A stretch of 64,000 nucleotides of DNA from Clavelina lepadiformis. Lineage: Eukaryota > Chordata > Ascidiacea > Aplousobranchia > Clavelinidae. Position 1 is the stretch's first letter, and the number at the start of each line of letters is the position of its first letter. The DNA lies in NCBI RefSeq assembly GCF_947623445.1, contig NC_135241.1, forward strand, positions 126,501-190,500. The letters are read 5' to 3'. Shown piece after piece: positions 7,285 through 60,428 of the stretch. The translations under genes were made by a program, and so were the position numbers. The notes below the pieces were generated by a model. The model did no database searches and was not told the DNA's origin. It was given only the letters and a program-made list of their open reading frames with translations.

Positions 7285-10007
7285 CTTGACAATGTTCAGA
7301 TAATATCGGTAAAATGATGCCAAATACAAATTAAGTCTCCCTTGTCTACTGTGAGCTGAACGTGAGCACTTCACACTAGATCCGGTCGCCGACTGGTACC
7401 AAAACTGGTTCTTGAAAGGTGGCGTTTTCAGTGTAACCTGGCGTTTGAATGGTGGCTTTGTTTATTAAAACAAGGTGCAGTGAGAATGCAAATAACACAA
7501 ACTACATACAGTTGAAGGTAAAGTTTTATTATTTCAACCATATTATGATATCGATGTAGCGTACGCCAACTTGACCGCTACATGGCGGCAGGACACCACG
7601 TTTACGTGCAAAAAGATTAATGTGTTCTTTATTTTTCAAAATTTCTCTTTAGTAGCAAATCGCCTTTTTTGCCAAGAAACGTCTCCAAAAAAGGTTTGCG
7701 CGTCTCAATGTGTAAATTGCTACAAAATACAAACTGTGAAAAAATTAAGAACACGATTACCTTTTTTGGCTAATCAATGTGGTGTCTTGCCGCTACTTGA
7801 GCTGTTATGATGAAGAACGTTACTGTGTAACATCACATGGCATTTCTTAATACAAATTATGATGACACTTATAAAGCGCCAGGTTTACGTTTTCACTGAT
7901 TGGCGATCAGATAGAGTACTCGACCACGATAGAACGAAAAAAATTGAGTTTGGCCACAGAGCCAAACGGTTTTAATTTCAATTTTTGACAAATTCCGCCT
8001 GTTTAATGACTTGGCATCACCACAACGTCATGAAACATCATCACAACGTCATAAAGTATTGTGACAACCACACCACGTGACTCTATGTCACGTCATAGCC
8101 TACGTGCGAAAAAACATCTGCATCAGAAATGATAATGGGAAGACCTTGATTGAACTGGTTCGGAAATTGGAAAACAAATACGTCAGAGGTCAAACTTGGT
8201 CAAGATGATGCAACTTTTGAAGAAAAACAACGAACGGACAAAAAAGATTTATGCTACAAAAGAATGGGATGGTTTTTTTTGCGAGTCTAAGAGGGTTGAT
8301 TGAGATACAGTGAAACGAGTGCATTAAAACGTGGTTATCTCAATTACATTTGTTGGGCGACTGAAGGCTATAAATAAAAGTGTATTCTGTTGCTGCCGAG
8401 GTATTCATTTTTTTGCAGGCGATTTATCAATAAGGCCTAAGTGTACGTTAAATAACATTTACATATTGATGTAAACCGAAAAATCAAACTTCACGGTCAG
8501 AAATGAGAGGGACTCATATGCCAACCAAGACGATAGCTAAGTCAAATACAGCTATCCATTGTGACGAAACCTAAACGTCATAGTATCAATATACATTCAA
8601 GTCTTCTGGTTGCTTACTGGGTAGAAAATACCAACGCGTTTCCAAGTCCAAGATTCCTTTTATCCGGGGAATTGTTCCAAAACTTCTCCTTTCACTCATT
8701 GTGTAGTGTAGTCAGTTACGTTTAAGATTTACTTCACTGTAACGGACCACTCTATCACCTCGAAGTTGGAACCACACAAATATAAACCGCACAATAACCG
8801 TTGTATATGCATTAAATGAACACTTAGTCGCGTCCCAACAAAAGTATAAGGCTGAAGGTTGTTTACATTCTCTTTGGAGAAAAAATTGCGGATTTTATTA
8901 GAAGGGGAAAGCAAAAAAAACCAGTAGAATGCAAAATTAATCAATCATAAATTTCTAAATAAGATAAAAAAGAAAAGCTAAACGGGAATTCAACAAACCG
9001 GAATATAAAGAAGAAAATTAAAGAATTAGCCAAACTCTAAAGGAAGCGGGTTATTGCTAAATAAACAAATTTAAGTTTGAAACCGGAAAATAACAAACAC
9101 AAAATAAAAATTTTAGATGATTTGTTTTCCTGAAATTCTTTTGTTGTATTTTCTCGGCTTCTTAAAAGTGTTGTCTGATCGACCAATTGGCTACAATAGG
9201 TAAATACAATAAGTAAATAAAAGTAAAATATAAAAACAAGCAAGCACTCCGCCAGTACCAGTAGCATGATTTAAGTTTGGTATATCTGACAAGTTTGTAC
9301 GAAACTGAATTCTATCTCTTTGAAAAATATTCTATCATAAACCTGAATACATAAGAAACCTTCAAAGAAACCGAATTTGTCACAAAAAACTTCTCATTTT
9401 AACGTCACTTGTGAGCTTTAAGCTGTTGCTGGATCCCAATAATTTTACCTTGTGGGAGAGTTTGAGCTTCAGGTCATGAAACGTCATAATAATGTCATGA
9501 AGCATCACCACAATGTCATGAAACATCATGAAGCATCATTATGAAGCATCACCACAATGTCATGAAACATCTTCCTACGAACCTTGCAAAAATTCGTTTG
9601 AAGAGACTGCCCCGCTTTTATTTTACATTTAACGTGACCTTTTTCAATTTGGATAATGACGTCATTATGTATAAGATTTATCTAAGCGATATCACAAGAA
9701 ATACATTACGACGTCATAATTAAAGCCCGAGTATGTGATTAAAGTTTGGTTTCAGGTATCTCCGTTTTATCGGTTTGCAAGAAGCTCTAATAAGAATCGA
9801 AAATCATGAAAATATTGAAACTTATTTTGTCACGGCAAAAGCTTTCGTGAGTGACAAATTAAAAGTAGATGACGACGCGGACCGGCGAGTGACACAAACA
9901 GGTCTGCGTCATAAGTGGAACTAGAATACGCTTGGATTGTTCGATCTCTCTACAAGATTCGTGTTTATTCTACAAAATCACATAATTACAAGTATTCGCG
10001 CGCAACT
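7285..10007. other. Intergenic: SNX upstream region and 3' flank of kinase-sushi gene
   Basis: No gene recognised. Contains the SNX promoter (the gene reads leftwards) and small islands of the same 21-bp repeat that forms the big array to the right, at about 8020-8062 and 9472-9572. Otherwise AT-rich sequence without structure that I can name. Confidence 0.45.
9472..9572. repeat. Short satellite island of the 21-bp GTCATGAAACATCA family
   Basis: About four to five imperfect units of the same 21-bp repeat as the array at 10249-11778, roughly 700 bp away across the last exon of the kinase-sushi gene. A two-unit trace also lies at 8020-8062. Suggests spread of the repeat over 3.7 kb. Confidence 0.75.
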
Positions 10008-10012
10008 TTATT
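10007..10012 (-). promoter_or_regulatory. AATAAA poly(A) signal overlapping the stop codon
   Basis: On the minus strand the last codons read TGC AAA TAA AGT; the hexamer AATAAA contains the TAA stop of the kinase-sushi gene, implying a very short 3' UTR. Confidence 0.6.
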
Positions 10013-13000
10013 TGCATCTGGCTGGCGCAGCGTCGATGTCACATGGCTCGGTGTAAAAGCCACTGGCGACGTAGGTTCTCAATAACTTGGCAAGGGCGTG
10101 AGTGCAGGCGACTCTCCTGGTGAGGAAATCGTTGCAGATTATCTCCTGGCCCTTCGACGCGTCACTGCACGTGCAGTCGTAGTTGATGAACCAGATGTCG
10201 ACGTCACTCTCGCATGTGATCTTGTGTTCTCCATACGTGATCTACGACAAAATCATTGAAACATCACCACAAAGTCATGAAACATCACCACAACGTCGTA
10301 AAACATCATTACAACGTCATGAAGTATCATCATAACGTTATAAAGTATCACAACAGCGTCATGAAACATCATTGGAACGTCATGAAACATCATTATAACG
10401 TCATGAAACATATTTACAACGTCATGAAACATCGCCCTCAATGTCATGAAACATCAACAAAACGTCATGAAGCATCATTACAACGTCACGAAACATCACC
10501 ACAACGTCGTAAAACATCATTACAACGTCATGAAGCATCACCACAGTGTCATGAAACATCATTACAATGTCATGAAACATCATTACAACGTCGTAAAACA
10601 TCATTACAACGTCATGAAGTATCATCATAACGTTATAAAGTATCACAACAGCGTCATGAAACATCATTGGAACGTCATGAAACATCATTACAACGTCATG
10701 AAACATATTCACAACGTCATGAAACATCGCCCTCAATGTCATGAAACATCAACAAAACGTCATGAAGCATCACCACAACGTCACGAAACATCACCACAAC
10801 GTCGTAAAACATCATTACAACGTCATGAAGCATCACCACAGTGTCATGAAACATCATTACAATGTCATGAAACATCATTACAACGTCGTAAAACATCATT
10901 ACAACGTCGTAAAACATCATTACAACGTCATGAAGTATCATCATAACGTTATAAAGTATCACAACAGCGTCATGAAACATCATTGGAACGTCATGAAACA
11001 TCATTACAACGTCATGAAACATATTTACAACGTCATGAAACATCGCCCTCAATGTCATGAAACATCAACAAAACGTCATGAAGCATCATCACAACGTCAC
11101 GAAACATCACCACAACGTCGTAAAACATCATTACAACGTCATGAAGCATCACCACAGTGTCATGAAACATCATTACAATGTCATGAAACATCATTACAAC
11201 GTCATGAAACATCATTACAACGTCATGAAACATCGCCCTTAATGTCATGATACATCATTATAATGTCATGAAGCATCACCACAACGTCATGAAACATCAC
11301 CACAACGTCATGAAACATCATAACAACGTCATGAAGCATCACCACAGTGTCATGAAACATCATTACAATGTCATGAAACATCATTACAACGTCATGAAAC
11401 ATCGCCCTTAATGTCATGAAACATCATTACAATGTCATGAAACATCACCACAACGTCATGAAGCATCACCACAACGTCATGAAACATCGCCCTTAATGTC
11501 ATGATACATCATTATAATGTCATGAAACACCACCACAACGTCATGAAGCATCACCCTCAATGTCATGAAACATCATAACAACGTCATGAAACAACGCCCT
11601 TAATGTCATGAAACATCATCACAACATCATGAAGCATCATTATAACGTCATGAAACATCACCACAATGTCATGAAACATCACCAAAACGTCATGAAACAT
11701 CACCTTCAAAGTTATACAGCATCACCACAACGTCATAAGGCATCATCGCAACGTCACAAAGCACCACTACAGCGTCATGCTTGCTCATAGAGTTTGTGCT
11801 TCAACTGGTTCCTACCGACACTGGCTTGCTGTCCTTGGATATTTTGTCGACCGCCGTTTTCATCGATTGCCAGGTCAGCTTCTCATCGCAGTTCGGACCG
11901 CCCATACATCCGGGACACTTACACGTGGGAAACGAATTGCTCCAGCTGCCCGATGAAAGGCATTGCCGGGTATTGTCCGTCTGCTGCAGAGAAAAGAACG
12001 TTTCAGTGACTTCGAACCTAACCACTACGGTTTGCGTTGAACGGAGGTTACCTGAAGGACTTCGTGACCATTGGAGCATCTATAGGTGCAGGTAGACCCT
12101 TCGCGAAAGTTGTCTGAGCAAGTCTGCACCAGCTCGACCGGCACTGGTTCGTATTGACAAACTAAACGCAAAGCTCAGGGTTGAAACAAAAGAATCCAAC
12201 AATGTCCGACAAATATATTGAAAGCAACCACTTACGCTTCTTGCACTGTGAGACACCTTGTGGCGACCACGTAGCATCGGCTTGACATATGATTGAGCTC
12301 GGTCCTACAACGTCATATCCGCGGTAGCAAGTGACAGTACAGCTTGAACCGGAAGTTACCTCATCTTCGATTACGTCATCATTGCATTTTACTTGTGCGT
12401 TAGACACCAGAGGAATCCTACAGCCTAAAATTTTTAATAAAAAGCTGAAATTTTGTTTCAAGGCGTGATCTATAGCTGTTATATCAAAGTAACTAATTAA
12501 CAATTAAGATTCGTACTCTCCGATCAGGGTAATCCCCAATTAACCGACCATCGCTCGAACACGTGAAAGAGAAAAACCAATCAAGAAGTCCAAGTACCTT
12601 TGCTGGTTTTCACCGGGAAGCAATCGCCCGAACCTCTGATGGAAATTTCGCCATCGACACAATCTATTCTTACTTCGTCACCTTCGAACTTGAACCCAGG
12701 TAAGCATGACCACGTGCATGTCATTGTGACGTTTCCTAACCCATCACGCCAGCATCGAGCTTCCATATTTAGGTGCCCTGGAACCGTTTGCGAGCAGAGA
12801 GGACGCATTCCTGGCTTCCATGGCAACACTGAAAGAGCTGCTCAGAAGTCAGTTCCAATTCAAAGCATTATAACATCAGAATAGAAGGAAAAAAGCAACA
12901 AAGATGGTTCAAACCTGCGTCACAGGATCTGTTCAAGAAGCACAAGCTGTTACCGGATGTGACGTACATGGCTACAAAGATGGCGACCGCTGCGACCAGG

Positions 13001-16000
13001 ATGAAAGATGCTGATATGAGCACGACACACTTCTTCTTATGGCGGCATCTCAGCCCTGCTAAAATGCAAACATAGTTAAAACATTCATCCAAGGCTGGGC
13101 CGCTTCAAATTAACGCAGCTCGGTGGAACTCATCGAAGCAGATTCATTATTTACTTTTCCGAGATTCAGGCCGTATCAAGGCCTCGTTTGGCGACGAATC
13201 GATCTCTGGGAAGCTGTTCACGTGATCATCCCGTTGAAGGCTTCCGCAGTCAGCTCTGTTGCCATGGTTGCTTGCACTACGAATTTTCTTGGGAAAGGTG
13301 ACGTCATCAGAATTTGGGGTTGTGAAGGATTGTGACGCGGTGCTGCTCCAAACTCCAGAATCCATGTTTCGCGAGATGGGGGCGCTTGATTGAGGTTGGA
13401 CGTCAGGAGTGACGTCACTGCTCAAAATACTTTGCTTGCTTCCAAGCTCGAGCCACTTGGAGCGACTATCCCCCATTCTAGAACGACACAACGCCTCTCT
13501 TGCTCTTCTGGCCACTACTGATGACGCCGTCTGCTGATGAATCAATGATGTATCACTCGATGCTGACGTAATTATTTCGTCACTATGACGTGTTGAGACG
13601 TCTACATTGATTGAATCCAGCTGCATCCATCGACTTTGTGTCTCGTGGGTTCTAGATCGCGCCAAAGCTTCCCTTGCTCTTTGGTCGAATCGAGAAAAAT
13701 GGTCGTTTGATGCAGAGGAGATCTCTAGTTCGACATCAGCGATCATTTCCGAGTCCTGAACATAAAGCGTCATTGAAGATCATAGCTAGGCCTATAATGA
13801 AGTGTCGGCACTTACCATAGGAGCGATCTTGTGCAGAGCAAAAATGATATTGTCTCTTGCCTGCGGAAACAAACTCCTCATCGTTGCCACCTCGGCACCG
13901 CAGCTCTCATGGAGATCTTATAACATCAAAATAATTGTGTCAGAGCATGCAAGGTTGCCATTGCATGTGGGGCAGTGAAATGAGGATATTACCTTGGAAG
14001 GAAGGTCTTGCATCTTCTTCTTGCGCGTAACTCTGTAACATCATACAGCGCAAGAAGTCAGGAGCATCTTCCGGGATGGAGTGCGGATCAGGGCGCTTGC
14101 CCTCAGCGACTGATTTGATGATCACATTTGCATTTGCTCCTGAGAATCAAGAAAGAACTTCATCTTTTTATCTTGGCCTCATATTGACCTCTTCTTAATC
14201 TCATCTTCACCTCATCTTTAACTCATCTTCAGTTCATCTTCATCTCATCTTCACCTCATCTTTAACTCATCTTCAGTACATCTTCATCTCATCTTTCAAT
14301 AAAACTTGAAACTCACCCATGTATGGCGACTGACACGTCATCATCTCCCAGAGGAATATTCCAAAACTAAAATCAAGAGTCGTAAGTTTTAATACGTTCG
14401 TTTGACATAAGGACAAGCAATCGATGTTGGACGCTTATTTTCGATTGTCCAATTCCTTAAAAGTCAGCCAGATCACCTGTAAACGTCGGTTTTGATGCTG
14501 GGTTTAGCGTTGGGGTCAAGAAGGCGCTCTGGGGGGATGTGAGTAATGGTTCCCCCGCCCCCAAGCTTCTGATTTGCTCCTTCAACAAACCGATAAACTC
14601 AACAGGCAACGAGAAAATTATATAAAGTTTATCCTGGACTTATGCATTTGTAAAGTTTATCCTGGACTTAATTGCAATCGTCCTCAAATATTGACCATTA
14701 TACAAAATTCTTTACAAATGCTTTTGTCAGATTTAGCTTCGCTACCTGCAACACTTTCTTCGCTCTCCACGAAACAAGTTCTGCTCCTTGAGAGCAAAGT
14801 GAAGGTCTGCATCAGGGAAAGTCCAAAATCACAAACCTGAGCAAGAAGAAAATCCAAATATTTCCACAAAAACATGTGAAAGTTTTGCTAAAGTATCTCT
14901 AACTACTGTAGAACAACTTCAGCGAAAGAGTGAAGTTTTCTTTGCATTAAATGAGAAGTTTGCATTCACCTTCGCATTAAGTTCTCTGTCCAGCAGCACG
15001 TTGGCAGCTTTCAAATCCAGATGAAGAACTTTTTTAGGCCTTTGACCGTGAAGAAATCTCATTGCCTCTATCACCTGGAAAGAAGTTTTTGTCAATTGAG
15101 TTGTTGTTACGACAATTTACGTCACAGAACAATAAAGCCGCAAACCAAATGAAGTACGTCAAAGAATTAAAGGGAGGTTTCACCTGCAGCGCAACCCTGC
15201 TTTTTATCAGCCACATTGAGAGCCTGTCAACGTCTTTGAGCTGCAGATCAAGAAAAAATTCAAAGCAGGAACCATTCGACGCGTACTCCAGCACAATACT
15301 AAAGCTGTCTTCACTGAAGTAAAGTCCCTCGAGTGAAACTATGAAAGGGTACTTCAACTTCCATAAAATGTTTGCCTCCATTTGAAGACGAAGTATGTCT
15401 CTGCATAGACACAAAATATTTCAAATACAATGGATCCCCGATAACAAAACCCCATTTATTTAGTCCCGGGTTCCTTTTGCATGCGATCGAGTCTTGAATA
15501 ACTTAATCGGACTGCGACCGCAATTTTCAGCCCAAATGCTCATAATCAATTAGACCAATAGACATAATTAGACCAATATTAGACAACTTTTTGTCTCTAA
15601 TATCATAGATATACATATAATATTAATAATATTGTATATTATAGCATTATTATAGAAAGCCATGAAGCTATCATCAGTATGAAAATTCCCCTCAGTTATA
15701 AAATAACGCTTGTTGTTATCTAAAGCACAGTCAACCGATGATCAGCAAGTTGTTTACAGCTTTAGATCACAAGACACTGAGAGCAGTAAACATGTGATCG
15801 CATCGATACTTCATCGACGGAACATTTTGTTTGATGTTGCTGTAACGGAAAAAAAATTTCATTATTGCTTCTTGAACAACCAAGTTTAAAGGATCTCGAT
15901 AAAAACATGGCGTCGATTTGCTGAGAGGAGCAGCCTATGCCTGCGGAGAACAGAACCGTTCAAGACTGGTGGAATGTTTTCTTTCATAACTCGTTCATTG

Positions 16001-17040
16001 TGACCATTCACCACCTTAATTTTATTGTCACATCTCATTTCATTTGTTTGGTGTTGCGTCATACCTCGCTATATTTGGCTTTTTATTCATCGTGGGGGGC
16101 GATGGAGAGAAAATATGTCCAAATATTTGCTCCTAGCTTAAATTTTAAACATCAGATAAAGTGCGGGTTGAGAAAATGACACTTAAACTTCCTCTGCTCA
16201 AACCGCACAGAGCAAACAATAAAGTCGCTTTAAATTCCATGATCAAAACGAGTGAAACTGTTTCAACACACAGCGATGTTTGTTGTGACGTCACCTAGCA
16301 CGAATAAACGGGAGCGACTTCGTCGAAAACACTTGATGCTAATTTTTTGTTTGCAGCGGATTAGCGGCGATTAGTGTTGCGTCAGCGTTTTCACAATTGA
16401 GTACACAATGGACTTCCTATGTCATTTCGCCAATCACAACAACAAAAGCCGACACAGTGCAGCCCTGTGAGGAAATAAGAACCATTTATAACAACTTATT
16501 TTGATTAGAAAAGACTTAAACTGTCTTAGGCTTCGGCCTAAGCGTGTTTTTTTCTCTGGCATCGATGACATGGAATTGTTGAAACCATGACTTCCATGTT
16601 TTTATTTCCAACGTTTTTGTGGTTTTCATCTAAACTCTTTATCGCGCGTCTTTATTATCGCGCGTCTTTATTATCGCGCGTCTTTATTACAGCTACTTGA
16701 AAAAGAACTGACAAAAATGTCCAAAGTATCATATCATGAAGCCACAAACAAATATTTTCACCAACTCCTCAAGCATGAATTAAATTAGCTTAAAGTTTAT
16801 TCACAAAACATTTAAAAGGTTTTACCGGACAGATGACGTCACATACCTGTCGCGAAGTCCTCCATTTAGAAGACGTTTGAGGACGACCTCCTTGCTGGTC
16901 ACCTGCCCTTTCCCCTCCCTCCTGTATTGATAGAGGAAGACTTCTCCGAACCCCCCGCTACCGATCTTTCTTATTTTCTCCAACTCCTTGTCATAAAAGC
17001 GTGGAATTTCACTTGAAAACGCCTTCAGTTGTGAAGTCAT
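10008..17040 (-). CDS. RIPK4-like kinase fused to TM segment and sushi ectodomain (predicted type II membrane kinase)
   Basis: Fifteen exons join in frame (2685 nt, 894 aa): 16847-17040, 15184-15400, 14970-15074, 14746-14836, 14477-14579, 14317-14366, 13993-14139, 13816-13916, 13155-13755, 12915-13058, 12598-12828, 12236-12424, 12052-12161, 11816-11983, 10008-10241. Residues ~20-310 are a TKL/RIPK-type kinase: GSGGFG loop (27-32), VVLK lysine 55, helix C Glu73, catalytic HLDLKAAN (Asp157; HLD as in RIPK4), DFG at 175, IPPE at 217, DVYSFG. So it should be active. Residues 337-536 are a Ser-rich linker with two RAREAL repeats. RHKKKC precedes a ~22-residue hydrophobic helix (548-569); basic residues on the N-terminal side predict kinase inside, C-terminus outside. 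Three CCP/sushi domains follow (~595-653, 663-722, 726-783), then a Cys-rich tail. The fusion junction (donor GTAAAT at 13154, phase 1) is inferred; without it the kinase stops at 13147. Kinase and sushi parts are each sure; the single-gene model is likely, not proven. Confidence 0.72.
10249..11778. repeat. 21-bp minisatellite with ~295-bp higher-order repeat, in last intron of the kinase-sushi gene
   Basis: About 70 units of a 21-bp repeat (consensus CATCATTACAACGTCATGAA plus A). A higher-order block of about 14 units recurs: the junction ATGTCATGAAACATCAACAA starts at 10441, 10736 and 11052, spacings of 295 and 316 (one unit longer). As 21 is a multiple of 3, all frames stay open and give spurious MKHHYNV-like or MFHDVVM-like frames. 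It fills nearly all of the intron 10242-11815. Confidence 0.95.
14205..14296. repeat. Two-copy CATCTT-rich direct repeat in a kinase intron
   Basis: A roughly 43-bp unit made of CATCTT/CATCTC words occurs twice in tandem within the intron between 14140 and 14316. Simple-sequence expansion; no other function visible. Confidence 0.6.
16641..16688. repeat. Three perfect 16-bp tandem repeats
   Basis: ATCGCGCGTCTTTATT occurs three times head to tail in the first intron (15401-16846) of the kinase-sushi gene. The GC-rich CGCGCG core is unusual against this AT-rich intron. Confidence 0.9.
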
Positions 17041-23279: not shown

Positions 23280-23285
23280 TTTATT
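23280..23285 (-). promoter_or_regulatory. AATAAA poly(A) signal overlapping the TSSK stop codon
   Basis: The minus strand ends AGT GAA TAA ACT, so the stop codon lies inside the hexamer AATAAA, as in the kinase-sushi gene. Confidence 0.5.
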
Positions 23286-24216
23286 CACTCGAACTGACGG
23301 TTACGTCGGAACCACCGCTGATAATTCCGGAATCCGTCAAAGTTAAACTTGAAGTCTGGTCAACTTTCGGTGATGACGTCATCCAATCGTGATTTCTGAT
23401 ATCATTAAGACGTAATCTTTTGCTTATGTCGTAATAAAGGATTTTTGACACAAGGTCGCGATATTTTGGGTTCATTTTCTTCTGATCCGGAAATTGCAGA
23501 GAAGACGTTTTTTGATCTTTCAATAATCTTCCAATGCTGGAATCCCTGAAAGGCATCAAAGCAAAGAACATGATGAACAAAATAACGCCCAAACTCCACA
23601 GGTCCGGAACAAAAGCTTCATACGCGACGCCTCTCAAAATTTCAGGAGCCGCGTAAGCAGCGCTGCCACAGAATGTCTCGCTCAAATCGCCTTCGTTCAT
23701 TCTCCTCGCAAATCCAAAGTCGGCAATTTTTATGCAGTTTGACTGGGTCAGCAATACGTTTTCACATTTCAAGTCCCGATGGACGATATTGTTTGTGTGG
23801 AGATAGTCGATGCCCTGGCACATTTGGCTGAAGTATTTGTGCGTTTCTACCTCGTTAAGGGCTCCCTTCGTCAGCACCCTCTCTAGCAGGTCGCCGTGGG
23901 CAGCCTTTTCAAGACACATGTAAATTTTGTTGCCTTCAGTAAAAACCTCATACATTTTTATAATGTTGTCATGAACCATCGCTCCCATTAATTCGGCTTC
24001 ACGCGGCCAAAACCTTTCCAGAAAATTCTTGGGTGCGGTTGTTCTATTGATTATTTTGATTGCAACCGGCAGCTCTTCCGAAGTTCCGGGCTTTTTCCAT
24101 ATCGCTGATTTTACTTTGGAAAAACTGCCCTCGCCGATAACTCTGTCCAACTTGAAGCCTTTTTCTTGTAAAATATTTTCATCAGATAAAACTATGGAGT
24201 TATTTATTTTTCCCAT
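23281..24216 (-). CDS. TSSK: Testis-specific serine kinase (TSSK)-like, single exon
   Basis: Intronless 311-aa Ser/Thr kinase from the Met at 24216 (MGKINNSIVL); the frame stays open 28 codons further to a Met at 24300, but the inner Met fits the family. Kinase motifs: GEGSFSKVK loop, VAIK lysine, HRDLKCENVLL catalytic loop, DFGFAR, AAYAAPEIL, DLWSLGVILF. The order and the wording FCGSAAYAAPE and HRDLKCEN are typical of TSSKs in the CAMK group, which are usually intronless and act in spermatid differentiation. The P+1/helix F linker reads GVAYEAFVPDLWS where most TSSKs have a Tyr-Asp/Pro-Lys-type sequence. The C-terminal ~25 residues are Ser/Thr-rich. Which TSSK paralogue it is cannot be told by eye. 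Confidence 0.9.
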   Translation of the reverse strand: MGKINNSIVLSDENILQEKGFKLDRVIGEGSFSKVKSAIWKKPGTSEELPVAIKIINRTTAPKNFLERFWPREAELMGAMVHDNIIKMYEVFTEGNKIYMCLEKAAHGDLLERVLTKGALNEVETHKYFSQMCQGIDYLHTNNIVHRDLKCENVLLTQSNCIKIADFGFARRMNEGDLSETFCGSAAYAAPEILRGVAYEAFVPDLWSLGVILFIMFFALMPFRDSSIGRLLKDQKTSSLQFPDQKKMNPKYRDLVSKILYYDISKRLRLNDIRNHDWMTSSPKVDQTSSLTLTDSGIISGGSDVTVSSSE

Positions 24217-24639
24217 TAGCAAGGTTGAAATTTTTAATAAAATATCAAGATTAAAATATTTACCAGAAAGGTATCTAAGCAAATCTTTGTGACGAAACAA
24301 ATGATATTATTTCCCAGCTTGCCGGATGCCATATTTCATCCTGACGTTCGTATATGACGTCATTGTTTATGCATCTAAATTTCTGGGCTGGGCGATTTTT
24401 TCCAACTTGCCTTGAATTGAAAAAGTTTCTTGAAGCTTCATAAGTTTACATTTTATACAAAAGATTTTGATTTGAGCCGTGCGTTGTGCCCTCGTACCTG
24501 GTCGCCAGCCAGTTAGGAGTGCGCTGTATGTGAGTGAAGTGGACATCTGCAAGGAAGAACGCCATGCAGCCAGTTTTCAGTTGTCAGCATGTTTGAAGGC
24601 AAAAGCGGACAATACCGGTCGGTCATGTTGTAAATGGGG

Positions 24640-41036: not shown

Positions 41037-43199
41037 TCATTTAATTCCATATTTTTTCGCCAGTTTTGGCAACGTCACTTTTGACCCGAGTAAATCTGCG
41101 CTATTTATCGGGGAAATCCCATCATCAGATGTCTTCACGTCACTCAGATCGGACGTTCTAATATCGGCGAGCTCCGATGTCCGAATATCGCTGATGTCTG
41201 AGATATGAAAAGAGCTCTCTGAACTCTTCTTAAATTTGCGGTTGACACGTTCTAACGAAGACGAATGAGAAATGGTCGGGGGATGAGGTCGATGTGTCCC
41301 GGGGGAAGATCGCAGAGATCGGATCACGGGAGAGTCCGATGAAGGGGCAGGCACGGGAAGTTTTGCTGGAAGAGTCGTGACAATTGATGCAGAATCGTCT
41401 GAGGTCATTGGTTGCGCTTTCACTACTTCATCGCGAAGTGAAGAAGAGATCTTGGTTGTGTCTGGATCATGCGTCCTATCCTCCTCTGCCTCTTTTTCCT
41501 TTTCTGGCTCCTCTGGGATCGAATCACGAGGAGTAAATCCAAAAGAAGTACTTGGAGAAACTTCGGATGTGGTCGGATGAAGAGAGGCATCAACCACCAA
41601 GCGTTGAGGTGATTGGCTCATTTCTCTTGACATGTCATAGGGGGTGGGCTGCCTGGATGAATCAAGGGTCGTTGTTGTCATCCCTGAAGGAGTTCTCTCA
41701 TACGACCAGGAACGCTCGTCATCGAAATCATCCGAGTATTTGTATCCATCGATGGAGATACTCGAGTCTTCGGAAATCTCATCAGGTTCAGCCGTTGGAA
41801 CTCGGATCTCGATGCTCTGTCTGCTCGTCGCTCGAGGAGAGCCAACATCCGGAACAGGGGACAGATCATCCACAGTTTTCAAATTCATTTCAGAAAAGTT
41901 GAGTTCAACTGATCCATGGTCACTTTCATCACTGCTTTCCATGCTTCCCATGCTAATATCCGATGCACTTGAAAGCCTTTCCGACATCAACTCAACTTGC
42001 ACAGATTTAGTCGCCTGTTGTTTCTTTTCAGAAGTTTTTTGTTTCTTTTGTGTCGGCTTTTTAACTTTTTTGCGACGATCCTTCCCAGCCTGCTTGTTCT
42101 GTGCAACTCGCAGCAAGTGGGATTTTGTGAGACCATACTTCAGCGGAAATTTCTTTTTGTCAAAATTTTTATCTTTGCTTTCGGAAGAAGTTTTCTTTGT
42201 TAGTGTCATGTTAAACTGTGAAGCAACTGGCATTGTATTGGTTGAAGCTTGTGCCTTCACCCCACTCCGCTGAAGTGGTTTTACCTCGTCAACTTGAGAG
42301 ACAAAGTGTTCTGAAGTATTTAAAGATGACGGGTTTAACCCAAGCTCTAAAACTTCTTTCATTAAAGCTTGAAGAACTGGGAATTGGTTGAGATAATTCA
42401 TGTCGGTTTGAGTGGATTCAGACTTCTGCTGATAGGAAAATATCGCGGAAGTAAAATCTTCTGCTCTCATCTCCTTTAGGATTTTCTCTCGTTTTTTATG
42501 AAAGTTTGTTTCAGAACAACTCTGCTCCTCTTCTTTACATTTTGCCTGAGCTACTTTTGATTCAGACCTGGTTAATCTTTCACTGGGATCTTTCTTCGCT
42601 TCGTAATACAACGCAGGTGGGCAAAGAACGTTATCTTCGTTTGCAAGTTTATTGACATCATACTTTGGGATTTCAAGTGTTGGCCTCAATGAAGTTTTCT
42701 CCTCTTTAACTACGGGCAAATGAGCCAGCATGGAATGTCCCAGACTGGTTAATTTGTACGCAACGTCGATAGAGCCCACACTACTTTGCATGAAATTGAT
42801 TATGTTAAGTGTAGTGATGGATCCATGACACGAAGTCTTATGAACCCCATTGCTTTGTAGATCGCCGATAATTTTCCGGATGGTTTCTTTCAAACTTTCA
42901 CTGCACGTGCCAATTATGAAGTTCTTTTTATGTTCATTCAGCTTTTCGTCCATTACAACCACGTTTAATGGAGTCACCAACAACTGCTCATAGAGTTTAG
43001 TTGGACTCATTTTAAACAAACACGACTTTCCTTTTTGGAATCTGTACACGTTCTCTTTTTGATGCTTCGACGGCTCAAAGTGAATTACTATCGTTGGAAA
43101 GTCAAGAAACGAAATTGCAACAAAGGGAATATCACATTTTACTCGTGGGAACAGATTCAACACATCAACCGCAACTTCTAAACAAAAAACGGAATCCAT
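41037..43199 (-). CDS. MAP10: Microtubule-associated protein 10 (MAP10), intronless
   Basis: One uninterrupted frame of 720 aa from the Met at 43199 (MDSVFCLEVAVDVLNLFPR). The frame extends 34 codons upstream, but this Met lines up with the family start. Matches vertebrate MAP10 (MTR120), also intronless: FLDFPTIVIHFEP, FQKGKSCLFKM, YEQLLVTPLNVVVMD, a GSIDVAYKLTSLGHSMLAHL block ending the N-terminal domain, the short CPPALYYEAK motif, LNQFPVLQALMKEVL, a basic GLTKSHLLRVAQNK region and acidic YKYSDDFDD. Vertebrate MAP10 stabilises microtubules at the spindle midzone and midbody. The middle and end (residues ~250-720) are Ser/Lys-rich and probably disordered, with a final cluster of SDISDIRTSELADIRTSD-type repeats near 41130-41200. 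There is no TM segment or known enzyme domain. Confidence 0.88.
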   Translation of the reverse strand: MDSVFCLEVAVDVLNLFPRVKCDIPFVAISFLDFPTIVIHFEPSKHQKENVYRFQKGKSCLFKMSPTKLYEQLLVTPLNVVVMDEKLNEHKKNFIIGTCSESLKETIRKIIGDLQSNGVHKTSCHGSITTLNIINFMQSSVGSIDVAYKLTSLGHSMLAHLPVVKEEKTSLRPTLEIPKYDVNKLANEDNVLCPPALYYEAKKDPSERLTRSESKVAQAKCKEEEQSCSETNFHKKREKILKEMRAEDFTSAIFSYQQKSESTQTDMNYLNQFPVLQALMKEVLELGLNPSSLNTSEHFVSQVDEVKPLQRSGVKAQASTNTMPVASQFNMTLTKKTSSESKDKNFDKKKFPLKYGLTKSHLLRVAQNKQAGKDRRKKVKKPTQKKQKTSEKKQQATKSVQVELMSERLSSASDISMGSMESSDESDHGSVELNFSEMNLKTVDDLSPVPDVGSPRATSRQSIEIRVPTAEPDEISEDSSISIDGYKYSDDFDDERSWSYERTPSGMTTTTLDSSRQPTPYDMSREMSQSPQRLVVDASLHPTTSEVSPSTSFGFTPRDSIPEEPEKEKEAEEDRTHDPDTTKISSSLRDEVVKAQPMTSDDSASIVTTLPAKLPVPAPSSDSPVIRSLRSSPGTHRPHPPTISHSSSLERVNRKFKKSSESSFHISDISDIRTSELADIRTSDLSDVKTSDDGISPINSADLLGSKVTLPKLAKKYGIK

Positions 43200-43810
43200 T
43201 CTATACAAGCAACATTTATTGCAACGGTTAGCTTTTAAACTTGCGACATAAAACGCCTCTAGCCACTCTAGTGCTGTCGGTTGCGTTAGATAAAGGATCA
43301 AAATTTCAACGAAAATTCGTCACTTTGTGCAATGAAGCAGAACATAAAAACATTATCTACGCTTGAGTGATCACAAAGAAATCGTATTTCATCGAGTCAT
43401 TTCAAAAGTTTGCTTTTATAATTAATAATACTTGAAGAAAAAGATGACTTCCAGGAAAGTTGGTCGCAGTTATTTCTCTGAAAAATTAAATAACAATTTA
43501 AATAAAAGTCGCTAAAAAGGAAAAATTAAAAAAGAATTGTCAAAATTATAGGATTTAATTTTGAATATTTCTATTCAATACAGTATTATGAGGAGCAGTA
43601 TCTTAAACAATCGGTAGTATTATAGCACAGAGCTTCATAAATTGCGATCACAATATTTTCAAAGGGTCGAAACGTTTTTGTGGTGATCGCGCAGACTTTA
43701 AATCAGGTGTGGAACCAATTTGCTTTACTTCTTGAAACGGTTTAATTCTCACAGAAGTGTGCTCATTATAGATTACTTCCCAATTTTTCACTGTTTAGCT
43801 CAGATTATAC

Positions 43811-57583: not shown

Positions 57584-57626
57584 ATTGTTAGAGATATTGA
57601 AGTGTTTGTGACACAATAAATAGAAA

Positions 57627-60428
57627 ATGCCAGCAGTGTCGAGAGGGGACGCGATGAGGGGCTTGGCTGTCTTCATCGCTGACATCCGCAACTGCAAGAG
57701 CAAGGAGGCAGAGAGCAAGAGAATTAATAAGGAGTTGGCAAACATCAGGTCAAAGTTCAAAGGTGACAAGACCTTGGATGGTTATAGCAAGAAGAAATAC
57801 GTCTGCAAACTTCTCTTCATATTTTTGCTCGGTCATGACATCGATTTTGGCCACATGGAGGCGGTAAATTTATTGAGTTCCAACAAGTACACGGAAAAGC
57901 AAATAGGTTATCTTTTTATTTCTGTTCTGGTTAGTTCCAATTCTGACCTGATGAAGCTGATCATCCAGAACATCAAGAACGACATTTCCTCACCAAAGCC
58001 GATCCACGTGAACCTCGCCCTGCACTGCATCGCCAACATCGGATCGCTCGAGATGGCAGAAGCATTCGGCTCAGAAGTTCCAAAGCTCCTCGTGTCTGCC
58101 CAGGCCAGTGAATCCGTCAAGCAAAGTGCTGCTCTGTGTCTGCTCAGGCTTTTTCGCACCATGCCTGAGTCAACGACTTACGCAGAGTGGGCATCCAGGG
58201 TCATTCACTTATTGAATGACCAGCACATGGGAGTCGTGACCGCAGCATCAAGTCTGATCCATGCACTGGCTCAGCACAGTCCTGCAGATTATAAAGGTTG
58301 TGTGTCTCTGGCTGTTTCAAGGTTGAGTCGAATTGTCACCTCCATATACACTGATCTGCAGGATTACACGTACTATTTTGTCCCAGCTCCATGGTTAAGT
58401 GTCAAGCTCCTTCGACTTCTGCAGTGTTACCCGGTCCCGGAAGAACCAGCTGTCAGGGGCCGCTTGGTCGAATGTCTTGAAACCATTTTAAATAAATGCC
58501 AGGAACCTCCCAAGTCAAAGAAAGTTCAACATTCAAATTCCAAAAATGCTGTCTTGTTTGAAGCCATCAACCTGATCATCCACATTGACAGTGAGCCCAA
58601 CCTTTTGGTGCGAGCCTGCAACCAGCTGGGCCAGTTTCTTCAACACAGAGAGACCAATCTTCGTTACCTCGCACTGGAAAGCATGTGCTTGCTCGCTGGC
58701 TCAGAGTTTTCTGCTGACGCTGTAAAGAAACATCGTGAGACGGTGATCAATGCTTTGAAGACTGAGAGGGATGTGAGCGTCCGGCAGCGTGCCGTGGATC
58801 TTCTCTACGCCATGTGCGACAAGAGCAATGCAGAGGAGATTGTTGCTGAGATGCTCACCTACCTGAAGAAAGCTGATTACGCCATTCGCGAAGAAATGGT
58901 CTTAAAGGTTGCCATCCTGTCTGAGAAATACGCTTCAGATTACACTTGGTATGTGGACACCATCCTCCAGCTGATCCGTGTGGCCGGGGATTACGTCTCA
59001 GAAGAAGTTTGGCATCGAGTGATTCAGATCGTCATCAATCGTGATGACGTCCAGGGATACGCTGCAAAGACAGTCTTTGAAAATCTCCAAGCACCAGCTT
59101 GCCATGAAAACATGGTCAAGGTAGGAGGCTATATTCTCGGAGAGTTTGGGAACTTGATCGCAGGTGATTCTCGTTCCTCGCCGCTGATCCAGTTCAATTT
59201 GCTCCATTCAAAATTTCATCTCTGCTCTGCGGCCACAAGAGCTCTCTTGCTCTCGACCTACATCAAGTTCATCAACCTCTTCCCCGAGATCAAGGGAACC
59301 ATCCAGAGCGTTCTCCAGAACAACAACCAGCTGCGGAACGCTGACGTTGAGCTGCAGCAGAGGTCGTTGGAATATTCCCAGCTTAGCTCGATCACGTCAC
59401 AGGACGTTCTGGCCACGGTGTTAGAAGAGATGCCTCCCTTCCCGGAGCGAGAGTCGTCCATCCTCGCTAAGCTGAAGAAGAAGAAACCCGCCACTGTGCA
59501 AGCCCTTGAGAAGGATGACGAAAAACACAAGGTGGCGCCTGCGAGCACTGAGAACCACATTGAGAGCAAAGCGGACGTCCCCGCCGCACCTGCATCTGCT
59601 CCTGCAAACTCCATCGATCTTCTTGGTCTCGGTGCAGCCGAAGTTGCTCCACCTTCATCCAACTCCCTCCTCGTCGATGTGTTCGGAGGATCCTCTGCGA
59701 CGGAGGAGCTGGTTGACGTCAACCTGCAGAAGTTCTTGTTTAAGAACAGCGGCGTGCTCTACGAGAACGACTTGATCCAGATCGGGGTGAAGTGTGAGTT
59801 CAAGGAGCACTACGGCCGCATCGGCCTCTTCTTCGGCAACAAAACGCCCTCTCAGTTGGTCAATTTCTCGGCATCAGTCCAAGCCGATGACGTAAATGGT
59901 GAGGTGGTTGTGACAACACAGAAGGAGGCTCCTGCTCAGATAGACGGAGGTGCTCAAGTGCAGCATTTCATCAACCTCGAGTGTGTGGCGTTATTTTCCG
60001 ACCCGCCAGCATTGACGCTAACTTACAACCACAATGGTACCCCCCACTCTATTTCTCTCAAGCTCCCCCTACTGGTCAACAAATTTTTCTCTCCGGTTGA
60101 GATGACAGCGGCCGACTTCTTCTCAAGATGGAAACAACTCGGACAGCCAGCCCAGGAGTGCCAGAAAATTTTCCAAGCAAAATTTCCGATCGAAACTGAA
60201 GCAACAAAACTCAAACTGGCCGGGTTTGGGCTCGCTTGCCTGCTCAACATCGACCCGAACCCCGATAATTTGGTGGGAACTGGAATCCTGAAGACGAAGA
60301 GTGCTCAGGTTGGATGTCTTCTTCGCCTTGAGCCCAACAAGCAAGCCAAGATGTACAGACTCACGATAAGAAGCAGCAACACCCAGCTTTCACCTCTGCT
60401 CTGCGAACTGCTGGAAAACCAGTTCTAG
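57627..60428 (+). CDS. AP2A1: AP-2 complex alpha subunit (alpha-adaptin), intronless
   Basis: A single 933-codon frame covers the whole protein (human AP2A1/2 are 939-977 aa). Start [20 protein letters not shown] and [40 protein letters not shown] are nearly invariant in alpha-adaptins; the armadillo-like trunk runs to about residue 600 ([49 protein letters not shown]). A Pro/Ala/Lys hinge (~625-690) holds a SIDLLGLG clathrin-box-like motif. The C-terminal ear has the beta-sandwich ([10 protein letters not shown]) and platform ([28 protein letters not shown]) subdomains. With beta2, mu2 and sigma2 it forms AP-2, which binds PIP2 and cargo to begin clathrin-mediated endocytosis at the plasma membrane. 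Basic PIP2-binding residues near the N-terminus are kept. The striking feature is the absence of any intron in a 2.8-kb CDS, while nearby multi-domain genes have 10-20. Confidence 0.97.

Follow-up and report, generated by a model that had tools for sequence, protein, structure and literature searches.

Known animal receptor kinases are type I proteins, and RIPKs are cytosolic, with C-termini that carry RHIM/death, CARD or ankyrin modules. In PASTA kinases the kinase is N-terminal. These bacterial proteins (PknB, PrkC) consist of an intracellular kinase, a single transmembrane (TM) helix and extracytoplasmic ligand-binding repeats (PMC3145798). Among tunicates, the fester/FcoR proteins of Botryllus form a multigene, allorecognition-linked group with sushi/CCP domains; they are type I, with a signal sequence and Ig domains, and for FcoR tails the part of the source that describes them gives tyrosine motifs and does not name a kinase domain (PMC12065747). 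A CCP-domain protein of Ciona was put forward as an individuality marker (PMC5465252), while the cDNA-validated TNFR-caspase hybrid of amphioxus has an effector enzyme fused directly to its ectodomain (PMC2575513). Here we describe a gene of the ascidian Clavelina lepadiformis that appears to unite an N-terminal RIPK-type kinase, a TM helix and sushi domains in one polypeptide. It lies on the minus strand of the stretch analysed, a window of 64,000 nt (C2:126501-190500; NCBI RefSeq assembly GCF_947623445.1, contig NC_135241.1) from the 209-Mb genome. Plain positions below are those of the window, and loci on C1, C2, C4 and C5 belong to the same assembly, with coordinates in Mb.

The data as a whole are best explained, with a probability of roughly 0.7, by a predicted type II RIPK-type receptor kinase from a family that also has apparently kinase-less members. 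That there is one gene with the order kinase-TM-sushi is, taken by itself, very likely, and the structure described below is probably real. The single gene model has 15 exons with a total of 2694 nt and 897 aa; all its introns are GT-AG and the only stop is terminal. An alternative acceptor of exon 5 (14597 versus 14579) adds 18 nt and keeps the frame. The encoded protein starts with the RIPK-type kinase and continues with a linker of ~240 aa, a single TM helix and three sushi domains; a Cys-rich exon encodes its C-terminus. A previous sequence-only reading of this DNA had placed kinase, TM and sushi exons at the same minus-strand positions. We recovered its 15 exons, though not its total of 2685 nt, and its domain list (kinase, TM, three sushi) had omitted the Cys-rich last exon. 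The features of the locus are:

16847..17040, minus strand: exon 1, with the start codon, glycine-rich loop and kinase VVLK lysine (exon model; Pfam kinase residues 21-306)
13816..15400, minus strand: exons 2-8, remaining kinase including HLDLKAAN and CDFG (exon model, Pfam, motifs)
15400-15184, 15074-14970, 14836-14746, 14579-14477, minus strand: exons 2-5 (exon model)
14366-14317, 14139-13993, 13916-13816, minus strand: exons 6-8 (exon model)
13155..13755, minus strand: exon 9, cytosolic Ser-rich linker as predicted, continuing the kinase frame (exon model; no Pfam match)
13059..13154, minus strand: 96-nt intron of phase 1 between the kinase side and the TM exon (exon model)
12915..13058, minus strand: exon 10, single TM helix (residues 547-569, ~13029-12961) preceded by a basic RCRHKKK flank (paralogues have similar TM exons)
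12598..12837, minus strand: exon 11, sushi-like domain 1 (exon model, Pfam)
12236..12424, minus strand: exon 12, sushi domain 2, the best Pfam stretch (residues 666-725; exon model, Pfam)
11816..12161, minus strand: exons 13 and 14 (12161-12052, 11983-11816), intron-split sushi domain 3, then a Cys-rich CPGCMGGPNC stretch
10257..11756, no strand assigned: 21-bp tandem repeat, ~71 copies with a higher-order unit of 295 bp, filling most of intron 14
10008..10241, minus strand: exon 15 and stop, C-terminal Cys-rich domain, CxC...CxH (18 genome loci)
9964..10012, minus strand: two AATAAA signals, at 10012 (overlapping the stop) and 9969

When the whole 897-aa protein is compared with Pfam, matches up to E=1 are limited to the kinase (residues 21-306, 7.2e-41) and sushi (2e-14; 54.1 bits against a cut-off of 20.7), with no RHIM/death, CARD or ankyrin module, Ig domain or PASTA repeats matched. 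A separate scan of the ectodomain piece reveals three sushi stretches; the linker and the last exon, scanned likewise, give no Pfam match. By eye, a RAREALxRSR...SRW/SKW motif occurs twice in the linker of exon 9. The catalytic motifs that the sequence-only reading had listed (GSGGFG, Lys55, HLD Asp157, DFG) are all present and intact: GSGGFG starts at residue 27, VVLK at 52 (Lys55), HLDLKAAN at 155 (Asp157) and CDFG at 174 (Asp175). Its label 'RIPK4-like' was not supported. Since the nearest solved kinase chain is RIPK1 (2e-35), followed by RIPK2 (1.1e-29), RIPK3 (1.4e-24) and RIPK4 (1.7e-22), we prefer 'RIPK-type'. The nearest solved relatives of the ectodomain are complement receptors 1 and 2.

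The kinase and TM frames are joined across the 96-nt intron by a donor AAAA/GTAAAT after 13155 and an acceptor TTTTAG before 13058, just as had been proposed from the letters, and the 15 exons so connected are open and bounded by GT-AG. Some properties of this junction speak against a single receptor: the donor is weak, a retained intron leads to a stop at 13147, only 8 nt in, and in-frame Met codons lie within exon 9. A soluble kinase isoform is thus possible, and an internal promoter could yield a kinase-less form. Taken further, the stop directly after the exon-9 donor would suit two same-strand neighbours: a kinase gene of RIPK type whose soluble product ends at 13147, and a TM-sushi gene started from an unseen exon, from a promoter in exon 9 or by trans-splicing. 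Against such a division, the frame of the TM exon has no Met ahead of the helix, so that the TM-sushi exons require an upstream exon, and no AATAAA lies between the parts. On the gene strand from 9700 to 17040 this signal occurs eight times in intron 1, for the last time at 15460, and thereafter only at 10012 and 9969; its absence between the parts, already noted by the sequence-only reading, therefore extends from 15460 to 10012. Other introns contain the variant ATTAAA, at 14393 and 12438; neither copy is at the 13155/13058 join. Judged by the window sequence alone the join is plausible, if unproven. It is now independently supported by the order and phase of exons in paralogues, and we consider two separate genes unlikely.

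These paralogues were found by searching the genome with the TM-sushi part of the window and with the C-terminal exon, loci being counted at E up to 1. The C-terminal exon is present at 18 loci (the window itself at 0.006, C2:17.47 at 0.15), and 8 of them have, among the matches listed, same-strand kinase exons further upstream. The kinase-bearing loci are the window, C2:8.7 Mb, C5:20.625 (kinase at 20.629), C5:20.630 (kinase at 20.635) and, with the kinase ~3 kb upstream, C5:21.231, 21.247, 21.267 and 21.636. For eight plus-strand loci in these C5 clusters, the matches listed include no neighbouring kinase on that strand. Complete models were built for two paralogues. The one at C5:21.25 Mb comprises 12 exons and 2013 nt, encodes 670 aa with a stop only at the end, and has the order kinase, two linker exons, TM, two sushi, C-terminal exon, with Pfam values of 5e-44 for the kinase and 2.4e-6 for sushi, and its frame is open throughout the kinase, both linker exons and TM. 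The other, at C2:8.7 Mb, has 16 exons with one GC-AG intron. Aligned with the window protein it shows 31% identity, and from TM to the last exon its exons start in the same phases as those of the window gene (1,1,1,1,0,0). The linker-to-TM junction is of phase 1 in 4/4 models (window, C5:21.25, C2:8.7 and a partial kinase-less gene described below), and in the paralogues this phase is kept despite other intron lengths and linkers. Between its kinase and its C-terminal exon the C5:20.635 gene contains a TM exon as well as three sushi domains that are split, and its relative exon phases fit. Recurrence of order and phase in diverged paralogues, together with the open kinase-linker-TM frame of the 12-exon gene, argues against two neighbouring genes in the window, and chance joining of a kinase and a sushi gene was rejected as the main explanation because order and phase recur. 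A separate observation on the C5:20.635 gene is that its linker exon is apparently tandem-duplicated (C5:20632729-20633394, minus strand), both copies being of phase 1-1 by eye.

Not all members of the family support a working receptor. The kinase C-lobe of the C2:8.7 gene is interrupted by a single in-frame TGA, which may have disabled this copy; the C-terminal exon of the C5:20.635 gene (at 20.630) is degenerate and has lost the CxC/CxH pattern; and at C5:20.629 we see kinase, one sushi and C-terminal exons and recognise no TM exon. The first two of these, together with C5:20.617, for which no upstream kinase match was found, could indicate an ancestral fusion that is now falling into decay, in the window copy or in the family, and has ceased to work as a receptor. 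The odds of this seem low, since the window gene retains 897 open codons and its catalytic motifs, and there is an intact gene at C5:21.25, whose main kinase exon has three further copies at 97-99% identity.

Directly adjoining the C5:21.25 gene in head-to-head orientation, the plus strand carries MAQTKPIELIQLPRNKKQQ..., followed by TM, sushi and C-terminal exon. In this sibling MAQTKPIELIQLP... is similar to the linker of the C5:21.25 kinase gene, GQIELTQLPREDNQQ, and in both cases TM comes next. The search for a kinase in its 3.7 kb gave nothing better than E=3.4, and no signal peptide-like stretch was seen in the exons examined; this reading concerns one of the eight plus-strand loci, with a model that runs only to the second sushi domain. 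A kinase-less gene with the linker and then TM ties linker and TM to one polypeptide. Together with the same-strand order in diverged paralogues it bears out the core of the sequence-only reading, namely one gene with the kinase inside, a TM helix and sushi domains outside. The same sibling, it should be noted, suggests that linker-TM-sushi can stand as a gene of its own, a point in favour of two genes in the window. The kinase-less state itself is weakened by the choice of its start codon, which is the first Met of the frame, picked by eye; CAG directly before this Met is a possible phase-1 acceptor and leaves room for an upstream exon. Judged by coordinates, C5:21.227-21.275 and 21.634-21.644 Mb contain four three-gene units, each with a kinase receptor gene on the minus strand that is flanked by two plus-strand loci sharing the C-terminal exon.

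Type II topology, with the kinase cytosolic and the sushi domains outside, is nearly as likely as the single gene. The region around the helix, which the sequence-only reading had singled out for a topology check, gave one helix (residues 547-569, Kyte-Doolittle (KD) hydropathy 2.94), preceded by 7 Lys/Arg in 15 residues and followed by 1. The window protein has no second hydrophobic stretch above 1.6 and none at the N-terminus, and every modelled protein likewise has a single hydrophobic stretch that is not N-terminal. The basic flank had been taken as a sign of a cytosolic N-terminus. This is clear for the window protein only: Lys/Arg counts before and after the helix are 5/4 in C2:8.7, 1/0 in C5:21.25 and 3/2 in the kinase-less sibling, so the charge rule is weak in paralogues and here counts against the proposed orientation. 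One might then place the kinase of the same single gene outside, for which the weak bias in the three paralogues measured would speak. We regard this as very improbable. Sushi domains need disulphides, and Cys residues in the window protein are concentrated after the helix (30/328 residues versus 9/546 before); moreover, there is no N-terminal hydrophobic stretch, and the basic RCRHKKK precedes the window's helix. Type II insertion is also favoured by the kinase-less sibling, which has the same linker and TM and shows no signal peptide-like stretch.

The last exon contains CxCx(20)CxH and further Cys, invariant among the aligned copies. We take the CxC/CxH spacing to be reminiscent of the SWIM zinc finger motif; neither SWIM nor any other Pfam profile matches the exon up to E=10. 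Given this and the predicted extracellular location, the domain was left without an assigned kind. Its profile reaches a best E of 0.0055 against PDB, with the best stretches in the first 74/133 columns, which are mostly sushi, and the single-sequence fold is unusable (predicted local distance difference test (pLDDT) 42.9). Nor does the ectodomain tree give usable resolution (7 rows, 83 columns, window branch 4.33, support for window plus C2:8.7 of 38/28). In the tandem copies C5:21.25 and 21.636, the frame is kept in the linker, TM and C-terminal exons, as are the linker-TM splice sites. Their linkers differ at 10/177 sites and in 9/58 amino acids (NG86 nonsynonymous rate (dN) 0.077, synonymous rate (dS) 0), the intron at 9/336 sites plus one gap column, the TM exon at 0/96 and the C-terminal exon at 13/252; over all 172 codons dN is 0.051 and dS 0.028. 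Diversifying selection between these copies was not significant (linker versus intron p=0.14, C-terminal exon versus intron p=0.13), nor was the finding that 10/10 differences are nonsynonymous (p=0.056).

The kinases may have a different history from what the common ectodomain might suggest. In a tree of 18 kinase rows the window and C2:8.7 group together (99/96), and two C5 kinases group with a kinase of an array on C4 (91/92). A single clade of the four receptor kinases was rejected by the approximately unbiased (AU) test (p=0.00583, row L055 left out for its long branch), the clade having been named with the first tree already known. The tree covers 18 rows of many kinases, several of them BLAST-derived pieces, and has long branches; two rows that group with the window pair, L041 and L047, are kinases with an SH2 domain and act as outgroup rather than kin. 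Against solved chains, the C5:21.25 kinase matches first a chain named only 'Tyrosine-protein kinase' (5.3e-25), then RIPK3 (2e-24), CTR1, ULK3 and JAK1 (6.7e-22), and the C2:8.7 kinase matches RIPK1 (3e-23). With a single clade rejected, an exchange of kinase heads may have taken place, and we favour at least one such event on a conserved TM-ectodomain. Alternatively, related kinases, for example those of the C4 array, may have lost TM and ectodomain, which would break the clade without any exchange. This array spans C4:21.66-24.37 Mb, its kinases being ~44-51% identical to the receptor kinase exon of C5:21.25; in one copy short similar exons, such as VTEIKPKSEPPDGA, follow the kinase. No sushi-like exon was found in the 2.3 kb read downstream of one array kinase. 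The same 2.3 kb include hydrophobic stretches (KD 1.97 and 2.39) that overlap apparent intron ends, so we do not call the array TM-free. Clavelina seems to possess a family of type II proteins with common TM and ectodomain; some of these have a RIPK-type kinase, others a kinase of a second type, and others apparently none.

If the transcript is spliced in vivo as modelled, the locus would produce one protein with an N-terminal cytosolic RIPK-type kinase, a Ser-rich juxtamembrane linker, a signal-anchor TM helix and, at the cell surface, three sushi domains and the CxC/CxH domain. Binding of a ligand by the sushi/C-terminal region might cluster the protein, the clustered cytosolic kinases would then trans-phosphorylate each other, as RIPKs do on crowding, and the output could be a stress, NF-kB or cell-death type response. 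Kinase-less siblings might compete or pair with it as decoys or co-receptors. A role as a recognition receptor with RIPK-like output is a tentative proposal. Were it correct, RIPK-type kinases would gain direct extracellular input, for which vertebrates use separate receptors and adaptors.

Other features of the window and the genome were noted along the way. Lone outlier copies of the 21-bp minisatellite of intron 14 occur past the 3' end of the gene, at 8031, 9498 and 9542. At 23281-24306 (minus strand) there is a single-exon protein kinase (Pkinase 2.2e-62), distinct from the receptor kinase and, as we presume by eye, TSSK-like. A single-exon 760-aa frame at 41037-43319 (minus strand) has a MAP10 N-terminal domain (9.1e-16). 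An intronless, full alpha-adaptin of 934 aa at 57624-60428 (plus strand; Adaptin_N 1.7e-150, Alpha_adaptin_C 9.2e-41) is possibly an intact retrocopy. At C1:28.63-28.64 Mb (plus strand) an open frame of 3801 aa with many matches to sushi queries is apparently a giant single-exon sushi protein.

The window protein shares the RIPK-like kinase domain and catalytic residues with RIPK1-4, but its C-terminus is TM-sushi-Cys-rich and it is not soluble if the spliced model holds. Like animal receptor Ser/Thr and Tyr kinases (TGF-beta receptors, EGFR) it has a single TM helix between ectodomain and kinase; compared with them, however, it is reversed, with the kinase N-terminal, no signal peptide-like start and the ectodomain C-terminal. 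The sequence-only reading knew of no described protein with this order. For animals this agrees with our limited literature search, in which no published kinase-TM-sushi protein or reversed receptor kinase was found among the titles and abstracts listed, in itself weak evidence of absence; it does not extend to bacteria, as PASTA kinases have the topology predicted here, with an N-terminal cytosolic kinase, one TM helix and external C-terminal repeats. They differ in being bacterial and in having PASTA instead of sushi repeats, and no sign of common ectodomain ancestry is seen. If our reading is true, the PASTA-kinase layout also arose in animals. We give about even chances to the broader proposal of an unreported class of reversed-topology animal receptor kinases, a tunicate multigene family in which one ectodomain goes with two kinase lineages or none and which is arranged as a repeated unit, one kinase gene flanked on either side by an apparently kinase-less one, as candidates for self/non-self or pathogen recognition wired to RIPK-type signalling. 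Different kinase heads on one ectodomain, next to kinase-less siblings, are reminiscent of paired immune receptors. With fester/FcoR the window protein has sushi domains in common, but it lacks an Ig match and an N-terminal hydrophobic stretch; the family would provide concrete recognition candidates in an aplousobranch ascidian, beyond the well-studied Botryllus. The CxCx(n)CxH of the last exon is suggestive of a SWIM zinc finger, from which the domain would differ by further invariant Cys, predicted extracellular location and the lack of a profile match. Finally, the TNFR-caspase hybrid of amphioxus is likewise a 'shortcut' receptor, which joins a caspase to TNFR where the Clavelina protein would join a kinase to sushi domains.

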